Of a stretch of DNA of 57,961 nucleotides, positions 14,394-55,161 are shown in pieces. Within the stretch, counting starts at the first letter, position 1; each line of letters begins with the position of its first letter. The notes beneath the pieces are model-generated. The model was not told the DNA's origin. It searched no databases and saw nothing but the letters and a program-made list of their open reading frames with translations. Source of the DNA: Candidatus Kerfeldbacteria bacterium. GTDB taxonomy: Bacteria; Patescibacteriota; Patescibacteriia; SBBC01; CAIJZX01. The stretch spans positions 1 to 57,961 of the forward strand of contig CAIJZX010000033.1 in the NCBI GenBank assembly GCA_903825245.1, read 5' to 3'. A program made the translations under genes and the position numbers.

Positions 14394-14504
14394 TTAACCC
14401 CGCACCACAATAGTAAAATATTGTTCGGCTTGAGGGTACGTTTGTAAATGAAATTCCATAAGGTATCGAATGATTGAGTTTGGTCTATTGTGGTGCGGGG
14501 TTAA
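14394..14504. repeat. Long inverted repeat LIR1 (20-bp arms)
   Basis: TTAACCCCGCACCACAATAG (14394-14413) / CTATTGTGGTGCGGGGTTAA (14485-14504). Confidence 0.85.
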
Positions 14505-14845
14505 GGACGAATCGTGAAAATACCTGGTTTATTTGTTTCTAAAAATTCGTGGAGGTCGAGAACATCATCGGCTTTGACGTGTCGCTGCGCATCCATATCC
14601 ACCACTTCATCAACCGTCAGATCAGTGACCAGACCTTGCGCCGTCATGCCGTTCGGATTCATCGACAATACTGACAGCAACGCGGTGCTGCAATTTTGGC
14701 AATCGATGTATGCCAGAATTTGTTGTTCGCGTTCGCCGATAATCCGCAGCTTCTGCAAGTCGTAGACGTTATTGCAAATCGGACAGCGCGCGTTCAGACG
14801 TAACAGATGATTGGGGTTAAATTGTGACGGTTGTTGTGGAGGCAT
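14501..14845 (-). CDS. Small zinc-ribbon-like protein in heat-shock cluster
   Basis: CPICNNVYDL...CQNC. Confidence 0.7.
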   Translation of the reverse strand: MPPQQPSQFNPNHLLRLNARCPICNNVYDLQKLRIIGEREQQILAYIDCQNCSTALLSVLSMNPNGMTAQGLVTDLTVDEVVDMDAQRHVKADDVLDLHEFLETNKPGIFTIRP

Positions 14846-14847
14846 TG

Positions 14848-14914
14848 ATCCCGTTAGAAGTGCGTGTAATGAAGTTTATTCTTCTGTCCCGTTAGGTCGC
14901 ACTTCTAACGGGAT
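14848..14914. repeat. Long inverted repeat LIR2 (17-bp arms)
   Basis: ATCCCGTTAGAAGTGCG (14848-14864) / CGCACTTCTAACGGGAT (14898-14914). Confidence 0.85.
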
Positions 14915-14996
14915 TGATGATGAGTGAAGTTATTCTCGAGTGGGCGACCCATGCTTGTGTCGTGTTCTACGCGATGGTGCGCCGCCCGCTTGAAGT

Positions 14997-15071
14997 CCCC
15001 TCCCTCTGCCCTTCGGGCATCTCCCTCCCGAAATCGGGAGGGAGACCCGGCGAAGCCGAGTGGGAGGGAGG
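14997..15071 (+). repeat. DUF559-linked palindromic element, copy G
   Basis: CCCTCCCGAAATCGGGAGGGAGACCCGGCGAAGCCGAGTGGGAGGGAG. Confidence 0.65.
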
Positions 15072-15081
15072 CGAATCTACC

Positions 15082-15501
15082 TTATGAAGCTTTCACTGAG
15101 ATTCGCCGCGGCTTCGCTTCGTCCGCTTTCGGGACAGTGATATGCAGAATGCCGTCTTTGTAGTTGGCTTCGGCTTTTTCTCCGATCACCGCTTTCGGTA
15201 ATGAGACGGCGCGGTAGAATGAACCGTAGCGCACTTCTTTGCGGTAGTAACTCTTGTCATCGACTTCCGACTTGTGCGATGATTGGCCGGAGATTTTGAG
15301 AATATTGTCTTCGATTTCGATGTTGACCTTCGATGGATCGATGCCGACGAGCGGCGTTTCGACGATGACGTTGTCCTTATCCTCGTACACATCCATAGCC
15401 GGGTTCATGATCCGTTGTGGGATCATCGGCATCCAGCTGGCATCGAGGAATCGGTCCATGTCATCCATCACATCCATCGGTGTCCATTTGACGATTGCCA
15501 T
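15082..15501 (-). CDS. Hsp20/alpha-crystallin small heat shock protein
   Basis: PAMDVYEDKDNVIVETPLVGIDPSKVNIEIEDNILKISG and GILHITVPK. Confidence 0.95.
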   Translation of the reverse strand: MAIVKWTPMDVMDDMDRFLDASWMPMIPQRIMNPAMDVYEDKDNVIVETPLVGIDPSKVNIEIEDNILKISGQSSHKSEVDDKSYYRKEVRYGSFYRAVSLPKAVIGEKAEANYKDGILHITVPKADEAKPRRISVKAS

Positions 15502-15572
15502 ATGTTTCGTGATTAATGATTATAGATTAAGGATTGAAATGCGGGTTTCTAACCCGCGATGGAAAACATTGT

Positions 15573-16073
15573 TTATTCGGCGACCACGACTTGCGCCGGT
15601 TCGAGGACTTTGTCCCCGGCCATGAATCCGGACTTCACTTCTTCGATAATCGTATCCGACTTCATGCCCTCTTTTTTGACTTTGGAAATAGCGTGGTGCT
15701 TTGTATGGTCAAATGGTTCGCCTTCGGTCTTGATCGGGGTGATGTTCATCGCTTTCAGCGCTTCTTCGAACTGGCGGAGTATATGGGTAATGCCTTTGAC
15801 CCATTCAATTTCCATCTGGTCTGCCGGAATATGCTTGATGGCGCGTTTCAGGTTGTCATAGATCGGCAGGAATTCCAGGACGACACTGCCTTGAGCAAAT
15901 TGGAAAATATCTGCTTTCTCTTTATCGGTTTGCTTCTTTAAGTTCAGGTAGTCGGCTTTCGCACGCTTCCACCCGTCCGTATGCTCAAGCAGTTGTTGTT
16001 CAAGCTTTCGAACTTTCTCTACAAGTTCGTTATCAGTATCTGGAGTTTGGCTGAGATTTGGCTGATCGTCCAT
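15573..16073 (-). CDS. grpE: Nucleotide exchange factor GrpE
   Basis: Start MDDQPNLSQ; WKRAKADYLNLKKQTDKEK...VLEFLPIYDNLKRAIKH; EVKSGFMAGDKVLEPAQVVVAE. Confidence 0.95.
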   Translation of the reverse strand: MDDQPNLSQTPDTDNELVEKVRKLEQQLLEHTDGWKRAKADYLNLKKQTDKEKADIFQFAQGSVVLEFLPIYDNLKRAIKHIPADQMEIEWVKGITHILRQFEEALKAMNITPIKTEGEPFDHTKHHAISKVKKEGMKSDTIIEEVKSGFMAGDKVLEPAQVVVAE

Positions 16074-16080
16074 TGAGATA

Positions 16081-16785
16081 TTAAACAGTCTGTAAGAGTG
16101 ATTGAGTAAAGCGCATGATGGCCATGTGTTCGCCGTAGTCTTGGCGCAACGGTCCGAGGAAACTGATGACGCCGTTGGCGCGTCGCGGAATACTATACTT
16201 CCCGATAAGCGTGCCACAGGTGGCGCTGAATGGATTATCTTTCCCGACCATGATATGCACATCGTTGCCAATATGGGTAAACATTTGTGCCATCACCACG
16301 TCGAGGTGATCGACCACTTTTGACAGGCTCTGCAGAACGTTGATGTCGGCGAATTCCGGTTGGCCGAAGAGGTTGGAGAGTCCGGTATAATACGTATCGG
16401 TTTTATCGAAGGCAACGATCACTGCTTCATCAATAATTTCCGCAATCGCTTTCGCTAGTTTCCGTAACATTTCCTGCTCCGAATCATGATGATGCTTAGC
16501 AACAGACTCAAGATGCTCGCGCTCGCGTTTGCCAACCGTTTCGGTCGGCATCGCCCGCTTCACGAACCATCGCCAGGCGGCTTCCGTCGGCACCCGTCCG
16601 GCCGAGGTGTGCGGTTGATGGAGAAAACCTTCGTCTTCCAAAACCGCCATATCGTTACGTACTGTAGCCGGCGAAACATCGAAACCATTTCGTCCGACGA
16701 GATGACCGGAGCTGATCGGCTTGGCCGATTCGGTATAGGTTTTGATGATGGTTTCCAGGAGTGCCTCCTGGCGATCGGAAATCAT
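16081..16785 (-). CDS. hrcA: Heat-inducible transcription repressor HrcA
   Basis: SDRQEALLETIIKTYTESAKPISSGHLV...SPATVRNDMAVLEDEGFLHQPHTSAGRVPT. Confidence 0.97.
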   Translation of the reverse strand: MISDRQEALLETIIKTYTESAKPISSGHLVGRNGFDVSPATVRNDMAVLEDEGFLHQPHTSAGRVPTEAAWRWFVKRAMPTETVGKREREHLESVAKHHHDSEQEMLRKLAKAIAEIIDEAVIVAFDKTDTYYTGLSNLFGQPEFADINVLQSLSKVVDHLDVVMAQMFTHIGNDVHIMVGKDNPFSATCGTLIGKYSIPRRANGVISFLGPLRQDYGEHMAIMRFTQSLLQTV

Positions 16786-16829
16786 AGAATTTGAGAGGGT
16801 TTATCGGCCATAGCCGTAGCGAAGGCCGA

Positions 16830-16856
16830 TTAGCAGTCTCACCCCGAGAGTGCTAA
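16830..16856 (-). promoter_or_regulatory. CIRCE operator
   Basis: TTAGCAGTC-N9-GAGTGCTAA, one mismatch to TTAGCACTC-N9-GAGTGCTAA. Confidence 0.9.
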
Positions 16857-16861
16857 TTTGT

Positions 16862-16890
16862 AGTATACCCCCACACCAAAGACCCGTCAA
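16862..16890 (-). promoter_or_regulatory. hrcA promoter (TTGACG-N17-TATACT)
   Basis: Lies immediately upstream of CIRCE in the minus sense. Confidence 0.8.
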
Positions 16891-16940
16891 CACCTGCACC
16901 AATACTCTCAATGAAGGCCTCTATTGGTGTGGGGGTATAC
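16863..16940. repeat. Long inverted repeat LIR3 (17-bp arms)
   Basis: GTATACCCCCACACCAA (16863-16879) / TTGGTGTGGGGGTATAC (16924-16940). Confidence 0.85.
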
Positions 16941-16992
16941 CCTATATTTTTAGGGTATCAAGTCTCCTACAAGGAGATAAAACCAATGACAA

Positions 16993-17018
16993 GAAAAAAC
17001 CGCACATCTGTGGTGCGG
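16993..17018 (-). terminator. Rho-independent terminator
   Basis: Minus: CCGCAC...GTGCGG TTTTTTC. Confidence 0.7.
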
Positions 17019-17020
17019 CG

Positions 17021-17548
17021 CTAGAAGCTCAACAATTTATACGTCTCAATCAAAGCGTTGTACAACAACATGCGGCTGTGTTCCGAGGTGATGTATGGAC
17101 GAGTGACGTGGTAGGAACGATGCCTGGCAAACTGTTCGTGTTCGTGGCCAACAATCATGTACGCTCCATCTATCGGATACCCAGGCGATGCGAGCGAGGC
17201 GATAACCACATCATCGGTGGCATCGGTTTGACAAAAATCGGCCACGTAGGAATTCGCATGTTCGACAATCGCCTTCCATTCGCCCTGGATCAAGGCCCGA
17301 TCTTTGAAACTGATGCAAGCGAACGTCAGTCGAGAGCGGTCTGCTTCCGTGAATCGATAAACGAAGAGGTAGAACAGCTGGTCAGTGCTTCGCCGAAAAT
17401 AATCGGCCGAAGCGAATCGTTCATGAGCGCCGAGTACGACATGAGCGCCGGCAGCGAACGAGGTGAAAAACCTATCGACTAACACCAGATTGTCGTAGGA
17501 AGTTGCATGTGCCGCAACATAGTCGCGAGCCTCACGTAGCTTGACCAT
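17021..17548 (-). CDS. Hypothetical protein
   Basis: SD GGGAGG, own promoter TTGACG-N17-TAGAGT and terminator. Confidence 0.7.
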   Translation of the reverse strand: MVKLREARDYVAAHATSYDNLVLVDRFFTSFAAGAHVVLGAHERFASADYFRRSTDQLFYLFVYRFTEADRSRLTFACISFKDRALIQGEWKAIVEHANSYVADFCQTDATDDVVIASLASPGYPIDGAYMIVGHEHEQFARHRSYHVTRPYITSEHSRMLLYNALIETYKLLSF

Positions 17549-17621
17549 GCTCCCTCCCTGGTTGGATGTAGGTTGTGAAGAACGGCGTTGATAAAGACTC
17601 TACTCTCGACACTCCACGCCG

Positions 17622-18326
17622 TCAAGAAATTTCTGATTTACGAACTATGTACCCAACTTGCAATTGCGGAGTTATCGGATGATCCCGACGATAAGAATAT
17701 AACGCATGATCTTCAAATGTGCACCGTGAGTCAAACATCATTTTCCCCTCTTGCACGCCCGCCGTTAATAACTGTTGGCGTGCAACAGATCGCAGATCAA
17801 GGCGGAAGTCGTAATCACGTTTTTGACATGCATCAGGCCACTGGGCGAACGCGGCGGCATCATTTTTCGACACAGTATAGTGATCAGCGCAAATACCTGG
17901 TGAGATGGAAACTAAGCAATCGCTCGCGATTGAAGGGAACGCTTCAATCCACCCCTGAAAAAACTTCAATAGTATTTCGGCTGCTAAACCGCGGCGACCG
18001 GCATGCACCATGCCAATCACCTGGCGTTTTGGATCATAGGCCGAAATCAGCAGACAATCTGCGGCGGTCATTGCTAAACCGACGTTTGGTTCAGCGGTTA
18101 TGAGTCCGTCCGTATCAGGAATAATAGTTCCGCCGTCCGACGCCGTTACGACGACAATGTTTGTGCCATGACACAAACCGGCGTGCACCGTTTCCGCTGG
18201 CCGTAAGCCATGTTGCGCAAGATAGTGCTGACGGTTCTCGAAACCACCGTTGATAGCCATCGTGCCGTCAATAGCTTCAGAATAACCGTGGACAAGGTTC
18301 GGGAAATCAGACCACCGTAACATCAC
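17622..18326 (-). CDS. YfiH/laccase-domain (purine nucleoside phosphorylase-like)
   Basis: LCHGTNIVVV, MTAADCLLI, GMVHAGRRGL, SPGICADHYTV. Confidence 0.9.
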   Translation of the reverse strand: MMLRWSDFPNLVHGYSEAIDGTMAINGGFENRQHYLAQHGLRPAETVHAGLCHGTNIVVVTASDGGTIIPDTDGLITAEPNVGLAMTAADCLLISAYDPKRQVIGMVHAGRRGLAAEILLKFFQGWIEAFPSIASDCLVSISPGICADHYTVSKNDAAAFAQWPDACQKRDYDFRLDLRSVARQQLLTAGVQEGKMMFDSRCTFEDHALYSYRRDHPITPQLQVGYIVRKSEIS

Positions 18327-19480
18327 ACTCTGCCCTTCGCTTGCAATCGTTCATAGATCGGTTCAAGACGATCGACGATTCGCCGCCAATCATATTGCAG
18401 CGCTTTCTCTCGTCCCGCTTGCCCCATACGCTGGCGAAGATCAGGGTCTTTAGCTAATACAGTAATCGCCTCCGCTAAATGCCGTGGACTACGCGGTGGC
18501 ACGAGGAGCCCTTCGACGCCAGGATTCACGACCCACCGATAGCCATCAATATCCGAAGCGACAACCGGCGTCCCGCAGGCCATAGCTTCGAGCAATACAA
18601 TGCCGAAACTTTCATTGCCGGTAGCTGGTGAACAGTAAATATCAGCGCTCTTGTAGTACCGCGGAATATCTTCGGGCGCGGCGTACCCTTTAAACTCAAC
18701 GCGGTGACGAAGACTCAAAGGAATTTGAGCATCGTAGTATTTCTTCATCCAACTTGTACCGACGACGGTAACGCGGTAATTGGCAATGCGTTTCTCTAAT
18801 TCAGGCAAGGCGGCGAACAGATACTTTGCACCTTTCCGCGGATCCATCCGTCCGACGAAGAGAATATTCAATGCGTCATCGGTACGATCCCACGGTTTCA
18901 CCTCAGGCGAAAAATGGTCGGTATCAATGCCGTTGGGAATTACCGCTACATCAAGGTCAGGATAGTATCGACGGACAATCGCTTCGGCGCTGGGCGAGAC
19001 AGCGATGTGTTGGCCGATTTTTTCCACAGCATCATCAATTACGGTACGAAACAGCCGATAGATAAGATCAGAAAATGCGTGACTATCACGGAACGAGTGA
19101 TGCGTGCCGACTTTCGGTGTCCGCATCACCTTGCTAGCAATGAGCGGTAACCCTGGATCAGTCGGACTTTGAATATGAATGATATCGAACTGCTCGCGCT
19201 CTTCAATTTTTTGAAGCATTCGCCCCAACTTCCATCCCCAGGTCACATGCATAGTCGCACCGTTCATCGTCAATGGAATTTGTACACCATGACGAAGAAC
19301 GCGCAGATCGCGATCGTCATCGCGCTTTCCGCTGCCGATTTTCATCGAGCGATGAATGCCGCCGGTAATAACCGTTACCTCATGACCACGCCGTTGCAGT
19401 TCTTTGCCGATATGCCAAACATGCTCGGTCACGCCACCCAGCACAGGATAATAGGCCTGTGTGACGAGACCAATGCGCAT
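18323..19480 (-). CDS. GT4-family glycosyltransferase
   Basis: AYYPVLGGVTEHVW, NGIDTDHFSP, NESFGIVLLEAMACGTPVVAS. Confidence 0.95.
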   Translation of the reverse strand: MRIGLVTQAYYPVLGGVTEHVWHIGKELQRRGHEVTVITGGIHRSMKIGSGKRDDDRDLRVLRHGVQIPLTMNGATMHVTWGWKLGRMLQKIEEREQFDIIHIQSPTDPGLPLIASKVMRTPKVGTHHSFRDSHAFSDLIYRLFRTVIDDAVEKIGQHIAVSPSAEAIVRRYYPDLDVAVIPNGIDTDHFSPEVKPWDRTDDALNILFVGRMDPRKGAKYLFAALPELEKRIANYRVTVVGTSWMKKYYDAQIPLSLRHRVEFKGYAAPEDIPRYYKSADIYCSPATGNESFGIVLLEAMACGTPVVASDIDGYRWVVNPGVEGLLVPPRSPRHLAEAITVLAKDPDLRQRMGQAGREKALQYDWRRIVDRLEPIYERLQAKGRV

Positions 19481-19492
19481 ATTACTTGGAAG

Positions 19493-20038
19493 TTATTTTA
19501 TCGTGACCGTCTGCTTTGTAGCATCGGTACCCAGCTGTAACTGCAAATTCTTAGCATCAGTCGGGATAAGATACTCAAAGAATCCGCGATCATTCTTTAC
19601 GGTCGTGCTCGCGATCTTTAAATACATCAACGGATATGTCGTTGTACCGTCAGATAACGATACCGATTGAATTTGAGATTGGATTGCTAAGGCATCAGCC
19701 GGCGCGACTGCATCAAAGTACACCACGAGATACGTCTTTCCACTCACCACCGCGCTACCATTAAATGTCGCATATTTTTGCTGGCTGGAAATCGTGATTG
19801 TTTTCGTACCTGCTTTGAGTGTCCCCGTCACCGCCGTATCACCCTTCACCTCAGTCGGTAACGATACATTTTTTGGCGTAACCGTATTCGTTGTGTTCGT
19901 TTGCGTAGTCGTGGTGGTAGTGGTTTTCGAAACCCACGGCCACGAGGCTTTACCCTGTTGTACTACAAACCAATATGCCCCAGCGACAAGCGCTAGGAAA
20001 ACGATGATGAGAACAGTAATGAGGATTGGGCGTCGCAT
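19493..20038 (-). CDS. Hypothetical membrane-anchored protein
   Basis: N-terminal TM, Thr-rich linker. Confidence 0.7.
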   Translation of the reverse strand: MRRPILITVLIIVFLALVAGAYWFVVQQGKASWPWVSKTTTTTTTQTNTTNTVTPKNVSLPTEVKGDTAVTGTLKAGTKTITISSQQKYATFNGSAVVSGKTYLVVYFDAVAPADALAIQSQIQSVSLSDGTTTYPLMYLKIASTTVKNDRGFFEYLIPTDAKNLQLQLGTDATKQTVTIK

Positions 20039-20307
20039 AGGCGTGTTGGTTTAGTTACCCACAGTATAGCAAAAACAAGGAAAAGGTGGTAGCCCACTCG
20101 GATCTTGGGACTAGGCTGTGGAGGCAGTGTTAGGGTTTCTGGAGCTATTTTCTAGGAACAATCTGATGCCCTCTCGGTCGGGAGCCTGTACGCGGATGGT
20201 GGAATAAATAGAAAATTTCGTTTTAGTGTTTTGGCGTATGGGATTGTGCAGAGCATATCGTCTACTCGTTGTTCGTTGATTGTATAAAAATGTTTAGAAA
20301 GTTGCGC

Positions 20308-20766
20308 TCATTTAAATTTCAAAATAATAACGCTTTTAATAATTCCAATAATTAATCCAACTACAGCAGCAATTCCAATAAGTTTTAATAAAAGATTGAA
20401 ACTTTTTAATTTTGTATTATGTATCGCTTTTTTGTTATCACTATTTACATCTACACCCTGAATGATAGTTTTCTTATAATTTTCAAAGAAATCTTCCCAT
20501 AATTTAACTTCATGTTCAGTTACTGTCTGACCTGTTGTGGAAATATCGGCCTGCAAATGAACGGTTGTACCCTTTACACCAACCTTTATATTGCTTTTCC
20601 AACTTAATGGATTGAACGTAATCCTATTTATAATAGCACTACCACGGGTAAAAACTATTTCATTTTCATCCTCACTTTGAAGTTTAAATTTATTCTCTAT
20701 AAAATACTTTTTTGTTTTGAGAATGGTATTATTAGAATTGATTTCAAACTTTATAGAATAATCCAT
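20308..20766 (-). CDS. Hypothetical protein with C-terminal TM (AT-rich)
   Basis: 152-aa ORF in an AT-rich patch beside a tRNA fragment repeat. Confidence 0.6.
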   Translation of the reverse strand: MDYSIKFEINSNNTILKTKKYFIENKFKLQSEDENEIVFTRGSAIINRITFNPLSWKSNIKVGVKGTTVHLQADISTTGQTVTEHEVKLWEDFFENYKKTIIQGVDVNSDNKKAIHNTKLKSFNLLLKLIGIAAVVGLIIGIIKSVIILKFK

Positions 20767-20861
20767 AGTAATATCGCCTAATGTTTATACGCTTTGATAG
20801 CGTCGATTGTGTGTCGGTCACACTAGTATGCGGATCCTCTCGGTCATCAATAATAAGTGTT

Positions 20862-20883
20862 GATGGTAGCGCTACCGGGATTC
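20862..20883 (-). repeat. 22-bp duplication of the tRNA-Glu 3' end
   Basis: GATGGTAGCGCTACCGGGATTC identical to 21029-21050. Confidence 0.85.
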
Positions 20884-21030
20884 CTTCTCCCCCGAGTCGA
20901 ACCGTGGAAGGTTCGCCTCTCCTCCAAAGCCTGCCGCTGTGGCTTCATCCGCTTCGCGGCGCAACAGTCGGCTTCGAATCCAGTCATGCAATCGCCAGGA
21001 CCCTCGACCGTTGGTCGATCGCTCTGGCGA

Positions 21031-21108
21031 TGGTAGCGCTACCGGGATTCGAACCCGGGTTTCCTGGATGAGAACCAGACGTCCTAGACCGGACTAGACG
21101 ATAGCGCC
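21031..21108 (-). tRNA. tRNA-Glu (anticodon CTC), CCA encoded
   Basis: GGCGCTATCGTCTAGTCCGGTCTAGGACGTCTGGTTCTCATCCAGGAAACCCGGGTTCGAATCCCGGTAGCGCTACCA; cloverleaf fits by eye. Confidence 0.92.
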
Positions 21109-21306
21109 ATGGGTGAAAACAGCGGGAGTGTAGCGATAATTAGCATAATTGGCAAGACCAGACAACAAGAGCTGGTCGAGCGACACGAATTCATTTTGGG
21201 TCGCGAGACTCTTCTCAGGCATTTTGCCGTGGCCTTGCGCCATGGCAAAATGAGCAACACCAACTCGGCTCGGATTTCCCGTGCCGGATGGTGCGTACGC
21301 ACACAG

Positions 21307-21591
21307 TTATTTCTTTTCTGTATTCAAGTAAATACCGCCCAACATCGCAACGATTGCGAGTAGGAGATAAAACGTCGGATCGGCAAAAAGTTCTTGGGTT
21401 CCAACCTGATACACAAATCCGTATTGGGTGAAGACTGCTAGAACACCGTTCACTAACGCGAACCAAAAGAAGGCTTTGGCTAACATCGCGTTCGTAAACT
21501 TATTCTGCCAACGATGACTCATCGTGGCAATCACGCCGCCGACGATAACGACAACGACGATCACTTCGATAATTGTTTTTAGTGTTTCCAT
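21307..21591 (-). CDS. Small membrane protein
   Basis: Three hydrophobic segments. Confidence 0.65.
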   Translation of the reverse strand: METLKTIIEVIVVVVIVGGVIATMSHRWQNKFTNAMLAKAFFWFALVNGVLAVFTQYGFVYQVGTQELFADPTFYLLLAIVAMLGGIYLNTEKK

Positions 21592-21761
21592 GCGCTCAAT
21601 TCACCCCCTTTTCTAGCAGAGTCGCCTGCCAGTTTTCGGCAGGAATCCGGCTTCGTCCAACATCATATAGTGCTAGGTTTCGCCGAACAGACTCTGAATA
21701 AATTAATGTGTTTACTGTTGATATCTTTCGCGTGGAGTATACCACCTCCGGATAGCGGTCG

Positions 21762-22784
21762 CTAGAGGAGTTTTCCCACCAAGACCGCCTGTTCTACGAA
21801 ACGATTTGCATAGCCCCATTCGTTGTCATACCAGGCCGCAACTTTCACTAAGTCGCCATCAATAACATTCGTCAACGGCAAGTCAACGATCGCGGAGGCT
21901 GGATTGCCTTTAAAGTCAGTGGAGACCAACTGCTCATCGGAGACAACCAACACTCCTTTCATTGCCGGACTGGCGGCGGCTTTGCGGAAGGCGCTGTTTA
22001 CTTCCTCAATTGTCGTCTTCCGTTTGGTCAGAAACGTAAAATCCGTATACGACACGGTAAGTGTTGGAACCCGAAGTGCATAACCATCAAATTTCCCTTT
22101 GAGTTCAGGCAACACTTCCGCCGTGGAAATTGCCGCACCGGACGTTGTCGGCACGATGTTTTGTGCCGCAGCACGAGCACGTCGAAGATCAGGATGCATC
22201 GGCGGCACCGGGCCGTCGACAAGATTCTGTTCGGCGGTATACGAGTGAATCGTCGTCATCGCCGCTTTTTTGATACCGAATTTTTCTAACATGACTTTGC
22301 TGACCGGCGAGACACAATTCGTTGTGCAGGAAGCATTGGAAATAACATCATCGCCGTGATTTTTTTCAGCATTAACACCAAACAAATACGTTTGCACGTC
22401 TCCACCTTTGGTCGGTGCAGAGACAATCACACGTTTGGCACCGGCAGTCAGGTGCGCTCGCGCCGCTCCGTCTTTCGTTAAGCGACCCGTTGATTCAAGT
22501 ACCACGTCAATTTTCAATTCTTTCCATGGGAGTTCTGCTGGTTCTTTCACCGATACGAATTTAATGCGGCGATCATCAACGAGTAACCAGTTATCTTCTA
22601 CTTTTACCGTTCGATGATACGCGCCGTAAGCCGTGTCGTGGCGCAACAAGTGCGCCATAACTTCCAGAGAACCAAGATCATTCACGGCAACGACTTCCAA
22701 CTCCGGTTTTTCCATAGCAATTTTGAAGGCATGGCGGCCGATGCGACCGAATCCATTAATAGCAACTCGTGTTTTTTTTGGCAT
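21762..22784 (-). CDS. gap: Glyceraldehyde-3-phosphate dehydrogenase
   Basis: VAINGFGRIGRHAFK, SNASCTTNCVSPV, WYDNEWGYANR. Confidence 0.98.
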   Translation of the reverse strand: MPKKTRVAINGFGRIGRHAFKIAMEKPELEVVAVNDLGSLEVMAHLLRHDTAYGAYHRTVKVEDNWLLVDDRRIKFVSVKEPAELPWKELKIDVVLESTGRLTKDGAARAHLTAGAKRVIVSAPTKGGDVQTYLFGVNAEKNHGDDVISNASCTTNCVSPVSKVMLEKFGIKKAAMTTIHSYTAEQNLVDGPVPPMHPDLRRARAAAQNIVPTTSGAAISTAEVLPELKGKFDGYALRVPTLTVSYTDFTFLTKRKTTIEEVNSAFRKAAASPAMKGVLVVSDEQLVSTDFKGNPASAIVDLPLTNVIDGDLVKVAAWYDNEWGYANRFVEQAVLVGKLL

Positions 22785-22794
22785 ATGTTTGTGG

Positions 22795-23583: not shown

Positions 23584-23585
23584 AG

Positions 23586-47023: not shown

Positions 47024-47087
47024 ACAATAATTCTAAATTAAACGGAATATGTATTTCTGTCAACCCACAAACGAAATAAGAAAAACC

Positions 47088-47341
47088 CTACGTGGCACGA
47101 TGGTCAGCAGGGTGCGACGCTTGATGCGAAGGAGTGCGGTTTTTCCGCAAACCTTTGATTGTGATCTCGAGGAACACGCCCGCGATCGCCAGAACAGCAC
47201 CGACAAAAAAACCTGGAAAAAAATCAGGAATCCGTTCCGATACGCCATCGCCAAGCATCGATCAATGATCGGATCGAACGGCTTCAGCACCAGGCAAGCC
47301 GCAGGCAACAGCACAATCGGCACGAAAGATCGGAGTTTCAT
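47088..47341 (-). CDS. Small two-TM membrane protein requiring a -1 frameshift at T7
   Basis: SD GGAGG, MKLRSFVPIVLL...NGFLIFF / PGFFVGAVLAIAGVFLEITIKGLRKNRTPSHQ...; -1 frame ends at TAG inside a terminator hairpin. Confidence 0.55.
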
Positions 47342-47420
47342 TTTTGCCTCCGGAGGTTGGAAGCATTTAGGCACGCCAAGCAATTTCCTGTACCCTAGCG
47401 CGATACCCACAGGGCGTCAA

Positions 47421-47495
47421 CCCCGTTAGAGCGCCCGAGAAAAATCGTAATAACAAGAACTTCAATATCATTATTTTTGCCCCGCTCTAACGGGG
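47421..47495. repeat. Long inverted repeat LIR5 (13-bp arms)
   Basis: CCCCGTTAGAGCG (47421-47433) / CGCTCTAACGGGG (47483-47495). Confidence 0.8.
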
Positions 47496-47714
47496 TCAAG
47501 GACGACGAATCACTTTCAAGCGACTCGTTACTCCACGAACAATACTGAGTTGCGATTTTGATAGTTTCCAGTGTTCTGCTAGAAGCTGAATAACGGCATT
47601 ATTTGCCTTGCCATCATCCGCCGGAGCTGTAACATGCACCACAATTCTACCGTCACGTTCGGTGACAGCGTTCCGCTTTGCCCGCGGTGTTACCTTAACG
47701 TTGACCAGCGACAC
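47496..47714 (-). CDS. DUF167/YggU-family protein
   Basis: VKVTPRAKRNAV...VTAPADDGKANNAVIQLLAEHWKLSKSQLSIVRG. Confidence 0.9.
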   Translation of the reverse strand: MSLVNVKVTPRAKRNAVTERDGRIVVHVTAPADDGKANNAVIQLLAEHWKLSKSQLSIVRGVTSRLKVIRRP

Positions 47715-48864
47715 TGGCGTAGACCGCTAACGTTTCCCGCGCCGCCCGTTTCCAACTGAATTTCTTAGCTTGCGTTTTTCCTTCACGAATCATTTTCTTT
47801 GCCACCAGCGGTCGGGTCAATACTTTGCGAATATTATCGGCCAGGGTCTCAACATCATCCGGTGTACTGAGCAAAGCCGCATTTCCGGTAATTTCCGGAA
47901 TTGCTGAAATGTTCGTCGTTATCACCGGCGTACCAAGCTGCATTGCCTCAAGCACCGGCAATCCGAATCCTTCATACCGAGTCGGGAAGACAAAAGCCGC
48001 CGCCTCGGACATAAGTTTCACTTTGTGATTGTGCGGCAAGTAGCCGAGTTGGTGGATTGACGGCAAATTCAGTTTCTTGATTAAGCGAGCAACATCGTCG
48101 CCGCGGTAGCCAACGCCGCCGGCAATTACTAATCCCGCATCTTTCACCGCCATCGGCTTCGTCCGTAACAGACGTTGCCAGGCTTGAATCAACGATGGAA
48201 TGTTTTTACGCGGATCAATTGTGCCGACGTAGAGCACGAATTTCTCGGGTAGCTTGTAGGCTTTGCGAACATTCGTCGTTCGATCGCGAAGTTGTAATAA
48301 CGTCGTATCCGCCGCTTCGTACACAACATGGATTTTTTTGCTGGGTACGCCGAAATGTTTGCGAATATCTTTTTTTGTGGCTTCGGAAACCGCAATGATG
48401 GCTGCCGCTTTTTTCACCGTTTGCGGCACCAGTATTTTCGTCGATGCGGTTTGCGACGGAAACCATTCCGGATGGTCGTAAATCGCTAAGTCGTGAATTG
48501 TTACTATGCTTGGACGGCTGTACGACAACGGCATAACATTCGCCGTGGCGTGAAACACATCAAGTCGATCGCGGTTCAGATATGACGCAATCAACATATG
48601 CGCATAGGCAAACGGTAGAAACTTTCCGTACCGAGAAAACGGCAACCGACGCACGGTCACCCGCGGACTAGAAAATTCATCCGTCACTGCGCTCGGCATT
48701 CGATGGTCGAAATATAAAAAGTACTCATTTCTACGATCAACCTCAAGCAATGCCTTGACGATATGAAAGGTATAATGTCCAATACCGGCTCGTTCACCAG
48801 AAAGTGGGTTGAGCATTGTTCTACAGTCGATACCGATGCGAAGTGGTTTATTTTTTGTGGCCAT
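47695..48864 (-). CDS. GT4-family glycosyltransferase
   Basis: GIDCRTMLNPLSGERAGIGHYTFHI; YEGFGLPVLEAMQLGTPVIT. Confidence 0.93.
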   Translation of the reverse strand: MATKNKPLRIGIDCRTMLNPLSGERAGIGHYTFHIVKALLEVDRRNEYFLYFDHRMPSAVTDEFSSPRVTVRRLPFSRYGKFLPFAYAHMLIASYLNRDRLDVFHATANVMPLSYSRPSIVTIHDLAIYDHPEWFPSQTASTKILVPQTVKKAAAIIAVSEATKKDIRKHFGVPSKKIHVVYEAADTTLLQLRDRTTNVRKAYKLPEKFVLYVGTIDPRKNIPSLIQAWQRLLRTKPMAVKDAGLVIAGGVGYRGDDVARLIKKLNLPSIHQLGYLPHNHKVKLMSEAAAFVFPTRYEGFGLPVLEAMQLGTPVITTNISAIPEITGNAALLSTPDDVETLADNIRKVLTRPLVAKKMIREGKTQAKKFSWKRAARETLAVYASVAGQR

Positions 48865-49069
48865 ACATTTCTTGGCGAATACCATGAACGCCAAATGCGA
48901 CCAGGACGATGCCGGCCGCGGATGAAAGAATTGCGGCTCCCATTGTCCCGACGGTAACCACCTGGAGCGCTGACGTCAGTTGCATTTGCCATACTGCGCC
49001 AACCACAAACAAAAAACCAAGTCCGAGCCCTAAACTGGCGAGAATGAATTGGAGATGTAGGTGTTTCAT
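48848..49069 (-). CDS. Small membrane protein
   Basis: Two TM segments; overlaps next gene. Confidence 0.65.
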   Translation of the reverse strand: MKHLHLQFILASLGLGLGFLFVVGAVWQMQLTSALQVVTVGTMGAAILSSAAGIVLVAFGVHGIRQEMYGHKK

Positions 49070-49115
49070 TTGTTTAAGAATAGCACAAACCGGAAGAAGA
49101 AAAAACCCATGAAAT

Positions 49116-49703
49116 TCATGGGCAAGATTCGTGAAAGAAGAGAATTGTGCGCCATCCAGATGTCAGTGACGGCAGTGCCCTGACCAAGCACATCGTAACG
49201 GCTAGCCATGTCACGATAACCGCGACATTTCCTGGTACGACCGGCACCAACACAAGTACCCAGGTCGTCACCTTTGCGCCACCATAGAGCGCCCGCATCG
49301 TCCGTGATGAGCATAGCCAATGCAGATGTGACCGTGCAACTTGCTCAAAACCATTCTTTGTAACAAGTCGGTTCGATTCGCGGAACCAGTCCACTACCAT
49401 GTCCCGTGACGTCGTTACGAGCGGCACCCACGGCGATACAAGTCCTAACAAGGCTAAGCATACCCATATCGTGTTGGCAAAAATGTGATCGGCAAACAAA
49501 TCTGCCAAAGTCCCCACCTCGTCAGCCTGACCAAAGTATCGCGCCACTCGACCATCGATTGCATCGAGCAGCACACAACCGATAATGATCAGCAGGGCAA
49601 GCGCTCTTGGTTCGGAGTGAGATCCGGAGAGTAACAGGTATCCGGCAGTGAAACTGCCGGCGATCCGAATAAGGCACAGCACATTCGCCAGACGCAGCTT
49701 CAT
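49116..49703 (-). CDS. CDP-alcohol phosphatidyltransferase
   Basis: DAIDGRVARYFGQADEVGTLADLFAD (DGxxAR...G...D...D); upstream TTGACA-N18-TAGGAT. Confidence 0.85.
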   Translation of the reverse strand: MKLRLANVLCLIRIAGSFTAGYLLLSGSHSEPRALALLIIIGCVLLDAIDGRVARYFGQADEVGTLADLFADHIFANTIWVCLALLGLVSPWVPLVTTSRDMVVDWFRESNRLVTKNGFEQVARSHLHWLCSSRTMRALYGGAKVTTWVLVLVPVVPGNVAVIVTWLAVTMCLVRALPSLTSGWRTILFFHESCP

Positions 49704-49816
49704 AGATTCCTCCCTCAGTAAAAAGAACTGATGTGGGCGATCCTACACCAGCTATTGAGCATTTGTCAACATTCTCGCTATAACTTCCCCACTCATTGCA
49801 AATGAACTGAAAAATC

Positions 49817-50332
49817 CTAATTTGTACCTTGATAGAACAATGTCTCGATCTGTTTTAAGTCCTCTGTTGGTTCCGTCTCGCTGAGACTAGATAATTCTTC
49901 CGACGGCTCCGCACATTCAAAGAATAGCATCCATTTACCGCTGGAATTGAATTTACAGTCAGGAAAGAGCATATGATGATGCCACGGTTTCTGTTGACTA
50001 TTGAGTTCCTTTGCTCGATCGATCATTTCTTTCATAACCGCGGTCGGAGTATATTCAGCCGACGTTGTTTCAACATGTAGAACATCCTTTCCGTGCAGAA
50101 GTTGAACCAACTGTTTTCCTACATCTGAGGGTTTTTGATTTGCGTGAACTGTGTAAAACTCCTGATCGGTACAATTTTCCAAAAACAAAACAAAATCACC
50201 GCTTTCGTTTAATTTGCATGATGGGGTAAGAATATGAAAATGCCACCGTTTCTTAGCATCAACTAGCTGTTGAGCAATAGTAACGATGTCATCTAGCGTG
50301 GTTTCTTGTTGTGCGATTTTCCAAAACTTCAT
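49817..50332 (-). CDS. Hypothetical protein with internal duplication
   Basis: Repeated pattern WHFHILTPSCKLNESGDFVLFLE / WHHHMLFPDCKFNSSGKWMLFFE. Confidence 0.75.
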   Translation of the reverse strand: MKFWKIAQQETTLDDIVTIAQQLVDAKKRWHFHILTPSCKLNESGDFVLFLENCTDQEFYTVHANQKPSDVGKQLVQLLHGKDVLHVETTSAEYTPTAVMKEMIDRAKELNSQQKPWHHHMLFPDCKFNSSGKWMLFFECAEPSEELSSLSETEPTEDLKQIETLFYQGTN

Positions 50333-50344
50333 AGCGGATATAAA

Positions 50345-51970
50345 TCACATCTTCTCCGGTGCGGAGATACCCATCACCTTCAACGTTTTTTGCAAGACGA
50401 GTTGTGTTGCTTTCACAAGTTCCAATCGATGCGCCCACACTTTCTGCTCGTCAATCACGCGACAGTTGGTGTAGAACTCGTGGAACTTCGTCGCTAATTC
50501 CGTCGCATAGAAAGGTAATTTCTGCGTTTCATGCGAGGACGCTACTTCGCAAATAACATTCGGAAATTGCAATAATGTTTTCACCAGATTCAATTCCGAG
50601 GTATGTGGCGGCTCTTTTGAAACAACGCGCGGCAACTTACCGACCCTTTGCAACATGCTAGAAATTCTTGCATGAGCGTATTGGACGTAGAAGACCGGAT
50701 TCTTTTCCGATTTCTCCTTCGCCAAGGTCATATCGAAATCCATATGCGTGCTCGCGCGATGCATCAAGAAGAAGAATCGCGCCACATCGAGCCCAACTTC
50801 ATCGACAACTTCTTCGAGCGTCACGTACGTTCCGGCGCGCTTCGACATTTTCACCTCGACGCCGTCTTTCATCAGCCGCACCATTTGTACAATTTCGACA
50901 TCGAGTTTCTTCGCAAACCCTAGCGCATTCATGGCCGCGTTAAGACGCCCGATATAACCATGATGATCCGCACCAAGGAAAAGAATTTCGTGGTCAATCT
51001 TGCGAATCGCAAAACGATAGTACCGCAAGGCAATATCCGATAAGAAATATGCTTTCTCACCATCAGTTTTGATGAGAACGCGGTCCTTGTCATCACCGAA
51101 CGCCGTGGTGCGGAACCAGGTCGCGCCGTCTTTCACATACAACAGGTCATGGCTCTCTAATACCGCAAGTGCCTTGATGTCGAGCTTTTTTGCCCCTAAC
51201 GTACTTTCGCGGAACCACGCGTCAAACGTTATTTTCAATTTCTTCGCCACCACGCGTTGCAATTCTTTTATCATCGTCTCCAACACGCGGCCTTTAATTC
51301 GATCGCGTAAACTCGTCATGTCCCGCAACTTCAACTTATCGATTTTCATCTGCTTGGCTAAGTCACTAACATACTCACCTTGGTAACAATGTTCCGGATA
51401 CTCGGTCGGAATTCCGTTTTGTTGGAAGTAGCGGCGGATCACTGACTCAGCTAACACGTTGACTTGATTGCCAATATCATTCAAATAATATTCGCGCCAG
51501 ACTTTCCAACCATTCATGGCCATCACATTCGCCAACGTGTCACCGCTGAACGCACCGCGGCCGTTCCCAAGCGTCATCGGCCCGGTGGGATTCGCCGAAA
51601 TGTATTCCACCAGAACTTTTCGGTTTTTACCGTCGAGGTTCGATCCGAATTTCGTGTCCGCTAAAATCCCCTGGACCTGTTTCATGATCCACTGTGGCTT
51701 GACCGTAAAGTTGATGAACCCCGGACCGGCCACGTCGGCTTTCTCCAGCATCGATTTGACGAGGCCGAGTTGGGCAATCAAATTGGTAGCAATTTCCCGT
51801 GGATTTTGGTTGACGATCTTCGCCAATTTTAAAGCCACAGTTGAAGTGTAGTCACCGAATTGCGCTTCAGTCACCGGTTCGATCGGAATCTCAATGTCTT
51901 TGACTGCCGGATAGGCTTTTGTAATCGCAATACGGAGAAGTTTTCGGAGTTGTTCGTCGGGAAGAATCAT
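50345..51970 (-). CDS. argS: Arginyl-tRNA synthetase
   Basis: VEYISANPTGPMTLGNGRGAFSGDTLANVM; KMSKRAGTYVTLEEVVDEVG. Confidence 0.97.
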   Translation of the reverse strand: MILPDEQLRKLLRIAITKAYPAVKDIEIPIEPVTEAQFGDYTSTVALKLAKIVNQNPREIATNLIAQLGLVKSMLEKADVAGPGFINFTVKPQWIMKQVQGILADTKFGSNLDGKNRKVLVEYISANPTGPMTLGNGRGAFSGDTLANVMAMNGWKVWREYYLNDIGNQVNVLAESVIRRYFQQNGIPTEYPEHCYQGEYVSDLAKQMKIDKLKLRDMTSLRDRIKGRVLETMIKELQRVVAKKLKITFDAWFRESTLGAKKLDIKALAVLESHDLLYVKDGATWFRTTAFGDDKDRVLIKTDGEKAYFLSDIALRYYRFAIRKIDHEILFLGADHHGYIGRLNAAMNALGFAKKLDVEIVQMVRLMKDGVEVKMSKRAGTYVTLEEVVDEVGLDVARFFFLMHRASTHMDFDMTLAKEKSEKNPVFYVQYAHARISSMLQRVGKLPRVVSKEPPHTSELNLVKTLLQFPNVICEVASSHETQKLPFYATELATKFHEFYTNCRVIDEQKVWAHRLELVKATQLVLQKTLKVMGISAPEKM

Positions 51971-51997
51971 TGCTTTAGTATACACTATGTGACACGT

Positions 51998-52040
51998 CCC
52001 CTCCTAGGGTAGGAGGGGTGACGCATCGCGCCGGGGTGGT
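51998..52040 (+). repeat. DUF559-linked palindromic element, copy B
   Basis: CCCCTCCTAGGGTAGGAGGGGTGACGCATCGCGCCGGGGTGGT between argS and smpB starts. Confidence 0.8.
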
Positions 52041-52072
52041 AGAGATGAGCACCACAATGCTACACTATATCC

Positions 52073-52519
52073 ATGCCCAACTTCGCCTCAAACCGAGAAG
52101 CCTTCCATAATTACGAAATCCTCGAAAAACTCGAGGCTGGTATTCAGTTAACCGGTCCGGAGGTGAAATCCATCAAAGGCGGGAATGTTTCGCTGAAAGG
52201 CAGTTTCGCGACCATCCATAACAACGAACTGCATTTGTTGAATATGCACGTCGGGTTGTATAAACCAGCGGCCATGATCCATCAAGAGCCGGACCGCACC
52301 CGCCGCCTCCTCGTCCACCGTAGTGACATCGACCGCTTCATCGGCAAAATTAAGTCCTCAGGGTTGTCGCTCGTTCCCCTGTCGATTTACAGCAAGAGCG
52401 GACTCATCAAAGTCGAACTCGGTTTAGGTCGCGGGAAAAAAGCCTATGATAAACGGCAATCGATTAAGAAGCGTGATGTGAAACGGCAGATTGGACGGGC
52501 GATGAGGGTGAAGGGGTAA
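52073..52519 (+). CDS. smpB: SsrA-binding protein SmpB
   Basis: NREAFHNYEILEKLEAGIQLTGPEVKSIKGGNVSLKGSF; KRQSIKKRDVKRQIGRAM. Confidence 0.98.
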   Translation: MPNFASNREAFHNYEILEKLEAGIQLTGPEVKSIKGGNVSLKGSFATIHNNELHLLNMHVGLYKPAAMIHQEPDRTRRLLVHRSDIDRFIGKIKSSGLSLVPLSIYSKSGLIKVELGLGRGKKAYDKRQSIKKRDVKRQIGRAMRVKG

Positions 52520-52523
52520 TTAA

Positions 52524-53258
52524 ATGAACCAAGAACGGCCATCATTTGAGGAGCCTCAGGGTGAATGGAGCGGCGAGCCAGGTTTTGAATTTCTTGATCA
52601 TGCAACCGTACCGGAATTCTTGAAACAACTGTGTGAAAAAGAGTTTAATCGGAAAGTCCCTGCTGAGTATTCACACCTCATCAAAGGTGCAAGATTCGCA
52701 AAAATTGACGGGGCTTTAGGTGATTTGGCAGAGGGCATTTATGAAGCGTCTGGTATTTCTAGAAACAGAAGTATTGATTTTAATCAGCTCAATTCTTTTG
52801 GCCAAGAAATTATTTCTAGTTTCAAACAAAAACATACGATTATCGATTTGGCTGGTGGAGGAATGTTTGGTGGCACTATGAGGAGTTGGGTTGAAGCGGC
52901 TGGAGCTCAACGATATTTGAATGTAGACATTGGTGTCATGGAACGAGTTGAACGGCGAGACAACGTACTTGAAATCCATATTAAGGACGATATGTTGCAA
53001 TTTGCTTCGACCGCTCCAGATGAAACAGTAGAAACCTATATCCTTAGTGGGCTCGAAGATGATCCAAGGTGGCACGAAGCAGAACAATATCTTAAAAAGT
53101 TGATGTTTGAAATACAGCGTTCCTTAACGCATGATGGGCGTATCGTCCTTGGGCATCATCCGAATGATGATATTAATAGGATGTTCATCGGGAATTTTCC
53201 GACAATTGCTAAGCCTGAGGGGCGTTATCTGGAACGCGTACTTTCAAAGCGTCCGTAA
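52524..53258 (+). CDS. Hypothetical (Rossmann/methyltransferase-like) protein
   Basis: KHTIIDLAGGGMFGGTMRSWVEAAGAQRYLNVDIGV. Confidence 0.55.
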   Translation: MNQERPSFEEPQGEWSGEPGFEFLDHATVPEFLKQLCEKEFNRKVPAEYSHLIKGARFAKIDGALGDLAEGIYEASGISRNRSIDFNQLNSFGQEIISSFKQKHTIIDLAGGGMFGGTMRSWVEAAGAQRYLNVDIGVMERVERRDNVLEIHIKDDMLQFASTAPDETVETYILSGLEDDPRWHEAEQYLKKLMFEIQRSLTHDGRIVLGHHPNDDINRMFIGNFPTIAKPEGRYLERVLSKRP

Positions 53259-53290
53259 GAATATTATTTCTATAAATCGTAGATAATGAA

Positions 53291-53722
53291 ATGATCGTTG
53301 TAGCTACAATTCGTAACGCCAAGCACACCGACTGTCCCGCCTGCCAGAAACTCGGCCGGGTTCCGGAAATTGCCATCGCCCCAAACTACTTTCTGCCACT
53401 CGAATATTACCAAGCAATCGTCCGCGGTAAAAACATTTTTCTCGTGGCTGAAATTCAGAAAAAGGTTGTCGGATTTGTGATTGCGGAAAAAATTCAATCT
53501 GGTTTTCTCATTCAATACCTCATGGTCAGCAAAAGGTACCAACGACAAGGCATCGGTCGCACACTATTGGAAACGGTAGAACGCGAAGCTAAGAAACGAT
53601 GGGTGTATTTTCTCCTCGCCTATGCCGAGCTGAAAAGTCCGGGCATGAATAAGCTTCACAAACAACTTGGCTATCACTCGAGCCATGTCACCCGTGAGTG
53701 GAGTAAGGGTCTTACAAAATAA
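53291..53722 (+). CDS. GNAT-family N-acetyltransferase
   Basis: VVGFVIAEKIQSGFLIQYLMVSKRYQRQGIGRTLLETVEREAKKR. Confidence 0.9.
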   Translation: MIVVATIRNAKHTDCPACQKLGRVPEIAIAPNYFLPLEYYQAIVRGKNIFLVAEIQKKVVGFVIAEKIQSGFLIQYLMVSKRYQRQGIGRTLLETVEREAKKRWVYFLLAYAELKSPGMNKLHKQLGYHSSHVTREWSKGLTK

Positions 53723-53790
53723 TCAGAATAGAAACATAACCACGAAAACAATACTTGTATTTCGCTGTCTTGCTACTGATTACTTCACAA

Positions 53791-54465
53791 TCACTTTACC
53801 GTAAACGTTAGTGTTTCATTCGCTGGCGCATCTTGCAGATTACAATATGCGTCTTTCATTGAAATCGTGTATACCCCGGGCGGAGTGGACGGCAAGACAT
53901 AGAAATCTTGTTTTTCGGTATCCGTAACAGGTACTGATCCGATCTCGTTGTCCAACCCAATAGGGCAACCCACGGTATCAGTAAAAAACAATCCTGGGCC
54001 TTTTTTCGCGTATTGCAAAATACTTTGATACCGTAGATTATCAACGAACCCCGAAGCTTTTGGTAGTTTCGCTTGCAGCCCAGCATCAAATGCGGTGTAT
54101 AAGGCCTTATCGGTCGTTGAAGCGTACGGTGGTATCGTTAAACCGATGTCGCTCACCATATGTGTGACCGTTTTATTCATATCCTGACCTTGCGAATTCG
54201 TGATATGGATTTTTTCGGTCTGAACGACTGAAGGCCAGCGATGCCGGTAAAGCTCCTCGACGGTTACAATACCACCCGGTGCAACCGTTGATGACACTAA
54301 CACAAGCTTCTTTGAGGTATTCAGTCCGAAGTAGTTCGTGACGACAGCAACATATCCAAACACAACGATAATAATTCCGAGTAGCACCGCAATGACGCGT
54401 CGGCGAACGATGTGGCGGGGTGAAGCCGGAACCAATGCGGGAGTGGTAGCGGGTTGTACTTCCAT
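53791..54465 (-). CDS. Secreted/membrane-anchored hypothetical protein
   Basis: MEVQPATTP start, TM RRRVIAVLLGIIIVVFGYVAVVT. Confidence 0.7.
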   Translation of the reverse strand: MEVQPATTPALVPASPRHIVRRRVIAVLLGIIIVVFGYVAVVTNYFGLNTSKKLVLVSSTVAPGGIVTVEELYRHRWPSVVQTEKIHITNSQGQDMNKTVTHMVSDIGLTIPPYASTTDKALYTAFDAGLQAKLPKASGFVDNLRYQSILQYAKKGPGLFFTDTVGCPIGLDNEIGSVPVTDTEKQDFYVLPSTPPGVYTISMKDAYCNLQDAPANETLTFTVK

Positions 54466-54553
54466 ATGGTTTGTTGTTATTTGTCTATACTGCCATTCTA
54501 CCACCATTGAAATTTACAAACAACAAACGCCGTCGTTTTAGGACAGCGTTTCT

Positions 54554-54964
54554 TGGTGGAGATGGCGGGTCTTTCACCCGCGTGGCGATGGATTCCCCGA
54601 TGATACTGATCACATGCGTAGTCCACTGTTCGATACATCACCACGTAGACAATGGACGAGAAACCGTGATGATGGTGTTCAGACAATACCGATTGACAGG
54701 ACTGAACGGTCTACCAATCGGTCCGGCTAAATGACACCCGTGATTCCCTAACCGGAGTCAGGAGACGGATGAACCTTCGGTATTACGCGAGGGTCGGAAC
54801 AAACGACGGAGTCGCGAAAGCACGCGCGAACGCGGCTTTTACGTTCTGAAGTTTGCTGAGAAGTGTATTGGCACTTGTCATGTACGACATTTTTACGAAG
54901 TTGTCGTCGTTTCGGCATGATACCAATCGGGTTGTCAAACATCGATCGACGATTGAACATCCCC
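54554..54964 (-). ncRNA. ssrA: tmRNA (divergent)
   Basis: 5' GGGGATG pairs with 3' CATCTCC-ACCA; T-arm GCGGG-TGAAAGA-CCCGC; internal tag ORF ending ...FVPTLA-TAA; two H-type pseudoknots downstream; strong minus promoter; near smpB. Confidence 0.85.
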
Positions 54965-55066
54965 CGGCCACCTTGTGTTTCTCTCCTTCAACAACTCTCC
55001 GGGTTGGTTTCAGGATAGGTGACACAAGATGACCGGCAAATGTCCAAAGTTACAGTAAACGCCAAT

Positions 55067-55095
55067 AGTATAGAGCAAAACAGGCTTTTTGTCAA
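55067..55095 (-). promoter_or_regulatory. tmRNA promoter (TTGACA-N17-TATACT)
   Basis: TTGACA = 55095-55090, TATACT = 55072-55067 on minus. Confidence 0.85.
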
Positions 55096-55161
55096 CCCCG
55101 CACCACTTTGGAGCTAACATTACTTCAAAAAAATATTGACTCATTCAAAGTGGTGCGGGGT
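55095..55161. repeat. Long inverted repeat LIR4 (16-bp arms)
   Basis: ACCCCGCACCACTTTG (55095-55110) / CAAAGTGGTGCGGGGT (55146-55161). Confidence 0.85.

Follow-up and report, generated by a model that had tools for sequence, protein, structure and literature searches.

Among described small mobile sequences, Correia/NEMIS, RUP and ERIC elements (reviewed in PMC2229807) are shorter than 200 bp, lack an open reading frame (ORF) and combine 5'-TA-3' termini and terminal inverted repeats with duplication of the target; they are intergenic, form stable hairpins and are present or absent between relatives. Dimers of repetitive extragenic palindromes (REPs), termed REPINs and linked to the REP-associated tyrosine transposase RAYT (TnpA-REP; PMC3116915, PMC3733652, PMC8266576), have conserved inverted ends, a variable spacer and a predicted fold. 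Five long inverted repeats (LIR1–LIR5) detected in a 57,961-nucleotide stretch of a Candidatus Kerfeldbacteria genome (contig CAIJZX010000033.1, hereafter the window) resemble the first group in each of the listed properties other than their termini, and very probably belong to a family of short mobile elements that are non-autonomous and akin to miniature inverted-repeat transposable elements (MITEs).

The family nevertheless departs from each of these precedents. Its termini are CCC..GGG as opposed to the 5'-TA-3' of Correia, ERIC and RUP; and unlike MITEs it has a 4-bp target strongly biased towards TTGA in −35 boxes, interiors that are not conserved, an inner repeat that varies yet matches that of the other end, and a range spanning many Patescibacteria lineages. 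The likeness to REPINs extends to conserved inverted ends, a variable spacer, a predicted fold and the possession of Y1_Tnp genes by most of the order's element bearers, whereas the differences lie in the lack of a GTAG tag beside the arms, in 4-bp target duplications, in a host genome with no Y1_Tnp match, and in the absence of copies flanking the Y1 genes examined. Its termini, target duplications and element-free sites make the family MITE-like; lacking shared interiors and a known autonomous parent, it differs from a standard MITE, and the missing tag and duplicated targets set it apart from REPINs. The open-access papers searched on palindromic repeats, MITEs, RAYT and insertion sequences in Patescibacteria/Parcubacteria contained no description of it.

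Integron attC sites likewise have conserved terminal bases and an inner stem that is paired although its sequence varies freely; however, the LIR family shows the opposite box order, with GTTAGA at its left end and TCTAAC at its right, and LIR copies are dispersed, with duplicated flanks and no gene cassettes. Identity with attC was rejected on the grounds of the wrong box order.

The five LIRs had been reported in a preliminary description of the window, and all were recovered at the same positions and with the same arms. Perfectly matching arms ≥14 bp long around a loop of 10–120 nt occurred five times in the window, whereas first-order Markov resampling yielded 0.05 per window (maximum 1), so that their occurrence is not due to chance. 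The direct repeats said to flank them are also real, reading in the minus sense TTAA (LIR1), TATA (LIR3) and TTGA (LIR4 and LIR5); the ATCAAT given for LIR2 is indeed a direct repeat, but is better read as a 4-bp TCAA duplication around T-CCCG..CGGG-A. In LIR1 and LIR5 the upstream duplicate takes in the stop codon of the preceding gene. Each copy in the window combines symmetric ends with a 4-bp duplication (in the family as a whole mostly TTGA); across the family interiors are variable, related ones lying either way round relative to TTGA.

Comparison of orthologous loci, in which G000 denotes the host genome of the window, G001 a genome of the same genus, G002–G009 and G041 other genomes, and L-numbers individual loci or stretches, yielded element-free sites for LIR1 (before dnaK), LIR2 (at the Zn-ribbon gene) and LIR3 (at hrcA), and for LIR4 a probable empty site judged from the promoter side. 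The hrcA promoter of G001 is the element-free TTGACACTCCAAAAATAGCGGGTATACTAC with one TATA, whereas that of G000 is split at its −10 box into TTGATACCCTAAAAATATAGGGTATA, the element and TATACTAC, with TATA present twice. Similarly, the sequence separating dnaK from the Zn-ribbon gene is CATTAATTCATTTATTTC in G003 as against CCTTAA, the element and TTAACTCATTTATTTC in G000, and the joined flanks of LIR1 align over the junction in G003 with a score of 68 (null maximum 34); the corresponding joined-flank alignment for the Zn-ribbon start, which is without the element in G001, scored 52 (null maximum 37). The ssrA promoters of G002, G004 and G006–G009 were unoccupied. In G002 and G006 the hrcA −35 box was found to carry independent LIRs of its own, differing from LIR3 in both arms and position.

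Duplication of the target was assessed with copies for which the arms were the sole criterion of choice, drawn from 454 kb of G000 (a total that includes the window) and from 400 kb of G002, shuffled right flanks serving as the null. A 4-bp direct repeat in register accompanied 23 of 35 copies, as compared with 4.3 (maximum 9) after shuffling; for G000 alone the count was 17 of 20. The duplicated words comprised TTGA, TTAA, TATA, TTAG, TTTA, CATG and TATG among others, and this variety indicates that the repeat belongs to the target rather than to the element. TTGA was the commonest duplicate, also among G000 copies that had not been selected for it.

Elements were mostly 63–140 bp in length with arms of 10–24 bp, and their ends began with CCC, then C or A, then G. 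Two end types coexist: type A, CCCCGTTAGA followed by three covarying bases (LIR2 and LIR5), for which the end pair may be written CCCCGTTAGA-nnn / CCCAGCACCAC, and of which an alternative form, CCCGTTAGA, has a T..A outer pair; and type B, CCC[CA]GCACCAC followed by covarying bases (LIR1 and LIR4, with LIR3 as a variant). The earlier remark that both arms change together was correct, and can now be quantified at positions 11–13. Among 126 TTGA-flanked type A elements, in which positions 1–10 were fixed by selection of the sample, 27 different triplets were recorded at positions 11–13, which were paired in 97, 93 and 92% of cases respectively against 47, 46 and 35% expected, while pairing at position 14 dropped to 37% against 29% expected. 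Since pairing runs through position 13 and ends at 14, the arm is a 13-bp unit with a free but matched inner triplet. Single-sequence folds of a 70–71-nt GC-rich subclass predicted a 13-bp stem enclosing further hairpins, and its 13 aligned members exhibited both-sided changes at pairs 11–13 with none broken. At the orthologous locus represented by L241 and L210 (flank 85.6% identical), position 11 had changed from A:T to G:C on both arms.

Where interiors were similar, their orientation relative to TTGA was the same in 153 pairs and opposite in 148, members of the GC-rich subclass also lying both ways; L178 and L238, at different loci, had interiors 89% identical. B-type elements of only some 40 bp with TTGA duplicates (L104:18847-18884 and L105:16302-16339) indicate that the interior is dispensable. 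L141 and L238 come from two genomes; their upstream flanks are 97.5% identical across 604 bp and their promoters 96% across 48 bp, yet the elements at their common TTGA differ in loop and inner arms, which points to a recent event at one and the same −35 box, either a re-insertion or a replacement.

Copies were almost always intergenic, and those at TTGA usually lay at a sigma70-type −35 box. In a promoter sample of 123 TTGA-flanked type A elements, selected for TTGA, the outward-reading TTGA side formed the −35 box, being TTGACA in 61; a −10 box (at least 4 of 6 matches) stood 16–18 bp off that side in 85 (54 of them at 17 bp), as against 21 of 123 for the other side. Insertion duplicates the TTGA and so rebuilds the −35 box, with the result that the promoter survives. 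In the window, the downstream TTGA of LIR4 and of LIR5 is, as had been noticed, the genuine start of a −35 box (TTGACA-N17-TATACT and TTGACG-N17-TAGGGT respectively), and both insertions would have left that box intact while replacing the DNA upstream of it. LIR3 would have parted the old −35 from the −10 box and supplied a new TTGACG 17 bp away, thereby creating a hybrid promoter. The claim that the LIRs lie at promoters holds for these three copies, each with a recognisable promoter, but not for LIR1 and LIR2, which occupy intercistronic gaps in the hrcA-grpE-hsp20-ZnR-dnaK run and would instead add 16-bp hairpins to the operon mRNA, that of LIR2 directly before a start codon.

Nor are the elements confined, as had been suggested, to heat-shock and transfer-messenger RNA (tmRNA) promoters: some 20 copies of types A and B were present in the 454 kb of G000, 16 of 19 lying outside ORFs of at least 150 aa, although such ORFs cover 80% of that DNA. 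Across the wider collection, the genes directly downstream of copies included 16S rRNA (L183, L189, L215), 23S rRNA (L175), RNase P (L179) and tRNA (L136), together with core genes whose products match the DnaA, EF-Tu, ribosomal S2, S6, S12 and L19, and MraZ families; they had no pathway in common. Within the order, CTAACGGGGTTGAC was found in seven of 10 genomes, its reversed control in none, and nearly all of the matches examined were the right end of an LIR. The pattern TTGACCCCGTTAGA-N50-80-TCTAACGGGGTTGA, which captures the main type TTGA-CCCCGTTAGA-nnn...nnn-TCTAACGGGG-TTGA, occurred in 13 of 381 genomes of the class and in at least 115 stretches of named genomes, mostly Patescibacteria; the matches listed included Kerfeld-, Moran-, Kaiser-, Buchanan- and Yanofskybacteria, Microgenomates and others, plus a few records titled Planctomycetes, Nitrospirae, Elusimicrobia and Deltaproteobacteria, some of which may be binning errors. 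Viral contigs contributed a single copy, in one contig.

These data bear on the two readings originally offered, a small mobile element with a short target duplication and a cis-regulatory hairpin of a stress regulon, of which the former has gained support and the latter has not. Mobility is favoured by orthologous loci that lack the element, by matched flanking 4-mers of varied sequence, by the numerous copies and by the same interior at different loci. On that basis, an enzyme acting in trans would make a 4-bp staggered cut and join the element ends to it. The exact 13-bp pairing suggests that the life cycle includes a step at which the two ends have to match, or to pair and fold together as a hairpin; concerted repair, with one arm copied from the other, is an alternative source of the match. 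An inserted copy would mainly reset the DNA upstream of a −35 box, and occasionally build a hybrid promoter, as at LIR3, or add a hairpin to an operon mRNA, as at LIR1 and LIR2.

A number of observations weigh against a mobile-element interpretation. Interiors were mostly unrelated, few being similar among 63 elements compared and related ones occurring in some lineages, a situation unlike that of ordinary MITEs. The orthologous copies L231/L237 and L173/L230 have kept perfect arms while their loops drifted, which hints at selection at the locus and argues against pure selfishness. Duplication was less frequent in G002 (6 of 15 copies). The comparison with relatives covered LIR1–LIR4, and for LIR4 the promoter side alone aligns (to G002), its left flank being without a homologue in the relatives. 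Finally, a search of limited coverage found no autonomous element or transposase with these ends: element ends flanked neither the Y1_Tnp genes examined nor DDE_Tnp_1 loci, no multicopy transposase was seen among the ORFs of the 454 kb of G000 and 400 kb of G002, and solo ends in these 850 kb had no distant matching partner. DDE_Tnp_1 was missing from most element-bearing genomes.

A possibility to be taken seriously, albeit one that we consider the less probable case, is that copies of mobile origin have been retained by selection as promoter-proximal regulators, the arm beside the −35 box or the hairpin tuning expression from strong housekeeping promoters. Such a role is compatible with mobility, and would account for the perfect arms and diverged loops of the orthologous pairs just mentioned, for the coordinated change at position 11 in L210/L241, and for the strong location bias towards stable-RNA and core-gene promoters; but that bias can arise from the choice of TTGA as target alone, the genes downstream share no pathway, and most orthologous promoters in relatives are without the element. 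It is, by comparison, unlikely that the elements are REPIN-like single-stranded hairpins mobilised in trans by a transposase of the Y1 (HUH) kind, the mechanism proposed for REP doublets. REPINs, too, have inverted ends that are conserved and a spacer that is less so (PMC3116915), and the pairing of positions 11–13 without conservation of sequence would fit recognition of a folded strand; moreover, Y1_Tnp genes were present in six of seven element-bearing genomes of the order as against none of three element-free ones. Outside the order, however, this association was weak (5 of 6 bearers, 17 of 30 others), and no Y1_Tnp match was obtained in the host genome or in G041, both of which bear elements. 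In the copies listed the arms adjoin TTGA or another target and not a GTAG tag, the Y1 genes examined were not flanked by element ends, and matched flanks of many sequences with orientation-independent interiors point rather to a staggered double-strand cut. The same orientation-independence, together with the varied duplicated tetramers, disfavours canonical Y1 transposition in which TTGA would be a fixed end of the element.

Two further explanations appear highly improbable. A conserved cis-regulatory hairpin of a heat-shock or stress regulon would be in keeping with the location of three of the five copies in the hrcA-dnaK cluster and of another before ssrA, but the dnaK locus of each of the seven relatives found lacked the element, ssrA promoters in relatives did likewise and those of hrcA mostly so, while the hrcA elements of G002 and G006 are at other positions with other arms. 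Furthermore, hrcA has a CIRCE-like operator (controlling inverted repeat of chaperone expression) of its own, the arms of the LIRs do not match the HrcA/CIRCE operator TTAGCACTC-N9-GAGTGCTAA, and copies elsewhere serve unrelated rRNA, ribosomal protein, dnaA and tuf genes. A conserved heat-shock regulon was rejected on account of the empty sites. Scarcely more credible are invertible promoter switches, in which the arms would be recombination sites and the loop would flip: related interiors do occur in both orientations, but insertion with target duplication accounts for this, and arm positions 11–13 differ between copies. In LIR4, LIR5 and most other copies the promoter lies outside the loop, so that inversion would not switch it.

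It is tempting to propose, tentatively and as something we would not yet expect to prove correct, that the family represents a new form of small-element mobility: self-complementary ends of exactly 13 bp with an inner three bases free but matched, a folded intermediate, a 4-bp staggered cut into −35 boxes, an arbitrary interior, and turnover at the same 'docking sites' at promoters in Patescibacteria and perhaps other phyla, the movement being due to an enzyme that has so far escaped recognition as a transposase. Genomes of Patescibacteria are tiny and seemingly poor in mobile DNA; a widespread family that repeatedly re-lands on the −35 boxes of their strongest promoters and leaves these unbroken would add a new influence on regulation in a large branch of the bacteria that is mostly uncultured, and the matched inner triplet offers a specific, testable clue to the integration mechanism.

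Table 1. Coordinates of the five LIRs, their flanking duplicates and associated features in the window.
Feature	Position	Strand	Basis
LIR1, B-type element, CCCCGCACCACAATAG..CTATTGTGGTGCGGGG, before dnaK	14398..14500	-	sequence; G003 without element
LIR1 TTAA duplicate, dnaK side	14394..14397	.	sequence
LIR1 other TTAA duplicate; includes TAA stop of Zn-ribbon gene	14501..14504	.	sequence
LIR2, A-type element, TCCCGTTAGAAGTGCG..CGCACTTCTAACGGGA, abuts Zn-ribbon start codon	14849..14913	-	sequence; G001 without element
LIR2 duplicate TTGA (plus sense; TCAA minus), at Zn-ribbon start codon	14845..14848	.	sequence
LIR2 second duplicate TTGA (plus sense)	14914..14917	.	sequence
LIR3, B-variant element, CCCCCACACCAA..TTGGTGTGGGGG, within −10 box of hrcA promoter	16868..16935	-	sequence; G001 empty site
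LIR3 TATA duplicate, present −10 core of hrcA promoter	16864..16867	.	sequence
LIR3 TATA duplicate stranded with putative former −35 (TTGATA-N16-TATA)	16936..16939	.	sequence
TTGACG −35 in LIR3 loop, 17 bp from −10 TATACT (16862-16867); putative insertion-made hybrid promoter	16885..16890	-	sequence
LIR5, A-type element, CCCCGTTAGAGCG..CGCTCTAACGGGG	47421..47495	-	sequence
LIR5 TTGA duplicate, start of −35 TTGACG (47415-47420); −10 TAGGGT 47392-47397	47417..47420	-	
LIR5 TTGA duplicate; includes TGA stop of 72-aa ORF (47496-47714)	47496..47499	-	
LIR4, B-type element, CCCCGCACCACTTTG..CAAAGTGGTGCGGGG, upstream of ssrA	55096..55160	-	sequence
LIR4 TTGA duplicate, start of ssrA −35 TTGACA (55090-55095); −10 TATACT 55067-55072	55092..55095	-	
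LIR4 second TTGA duplicate	55161..55164	-	
tmRNA gene (ssrA), downstream of LIR4	54554..54964	-	Rfam RF00023

The HrcA, GrpE, Hsp20 and DnaK gene calls rest on Pfam and that of tmRNA on Rfam; an Rfam scan of the window elements and 56 loci gave no curated family match over the elements. The CIRCE-like operator, TTAGCAGTC-N9-GAGTGCTAA, occupies window positions 16833-16859 just 3' of the hrcA promoter, downstream of LIR3, and is conserved in relatives.

Some further arrangements were recorded among individual copies. In L156 and L203 a 28-bp A-type palindrome is nested in a larger A-type element, the loops of L156 and L203 being 89% identical and inverted relative to TTGA. L228:3965-4124, in a record titled Planctomycetota, holds two tandem A-type elements with one common TTGA. 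A mini A-type palindrome, CCCCGTTAGAT..ATCTAACGGGG, lies within an RNase P RNA gene (L145:7341-7375), and a B-type one, CCCCGCACCTTTTGAAACAAAAGGTGCGGGG, right at the 5' end of the tmRNA gene ssrA in G006 (L284). Y1_Tnp (RAYT-like) genes with in-frame hairpin inserts of the AACGCACTCT..AGAGTGCGTT type were encountered at L253:1704-1736, L254:1673-1707, L252 and L255, as though a palindromic repeat had entered its own transposase gene. G002 also contains a separate, conventional MITE of approximately 165 bp with the terminal inverted repeat AACTCATTTCAAAACCT.. and CTAG flanks, present in two copies (L110:17601-17768 and L111:8672-8836).

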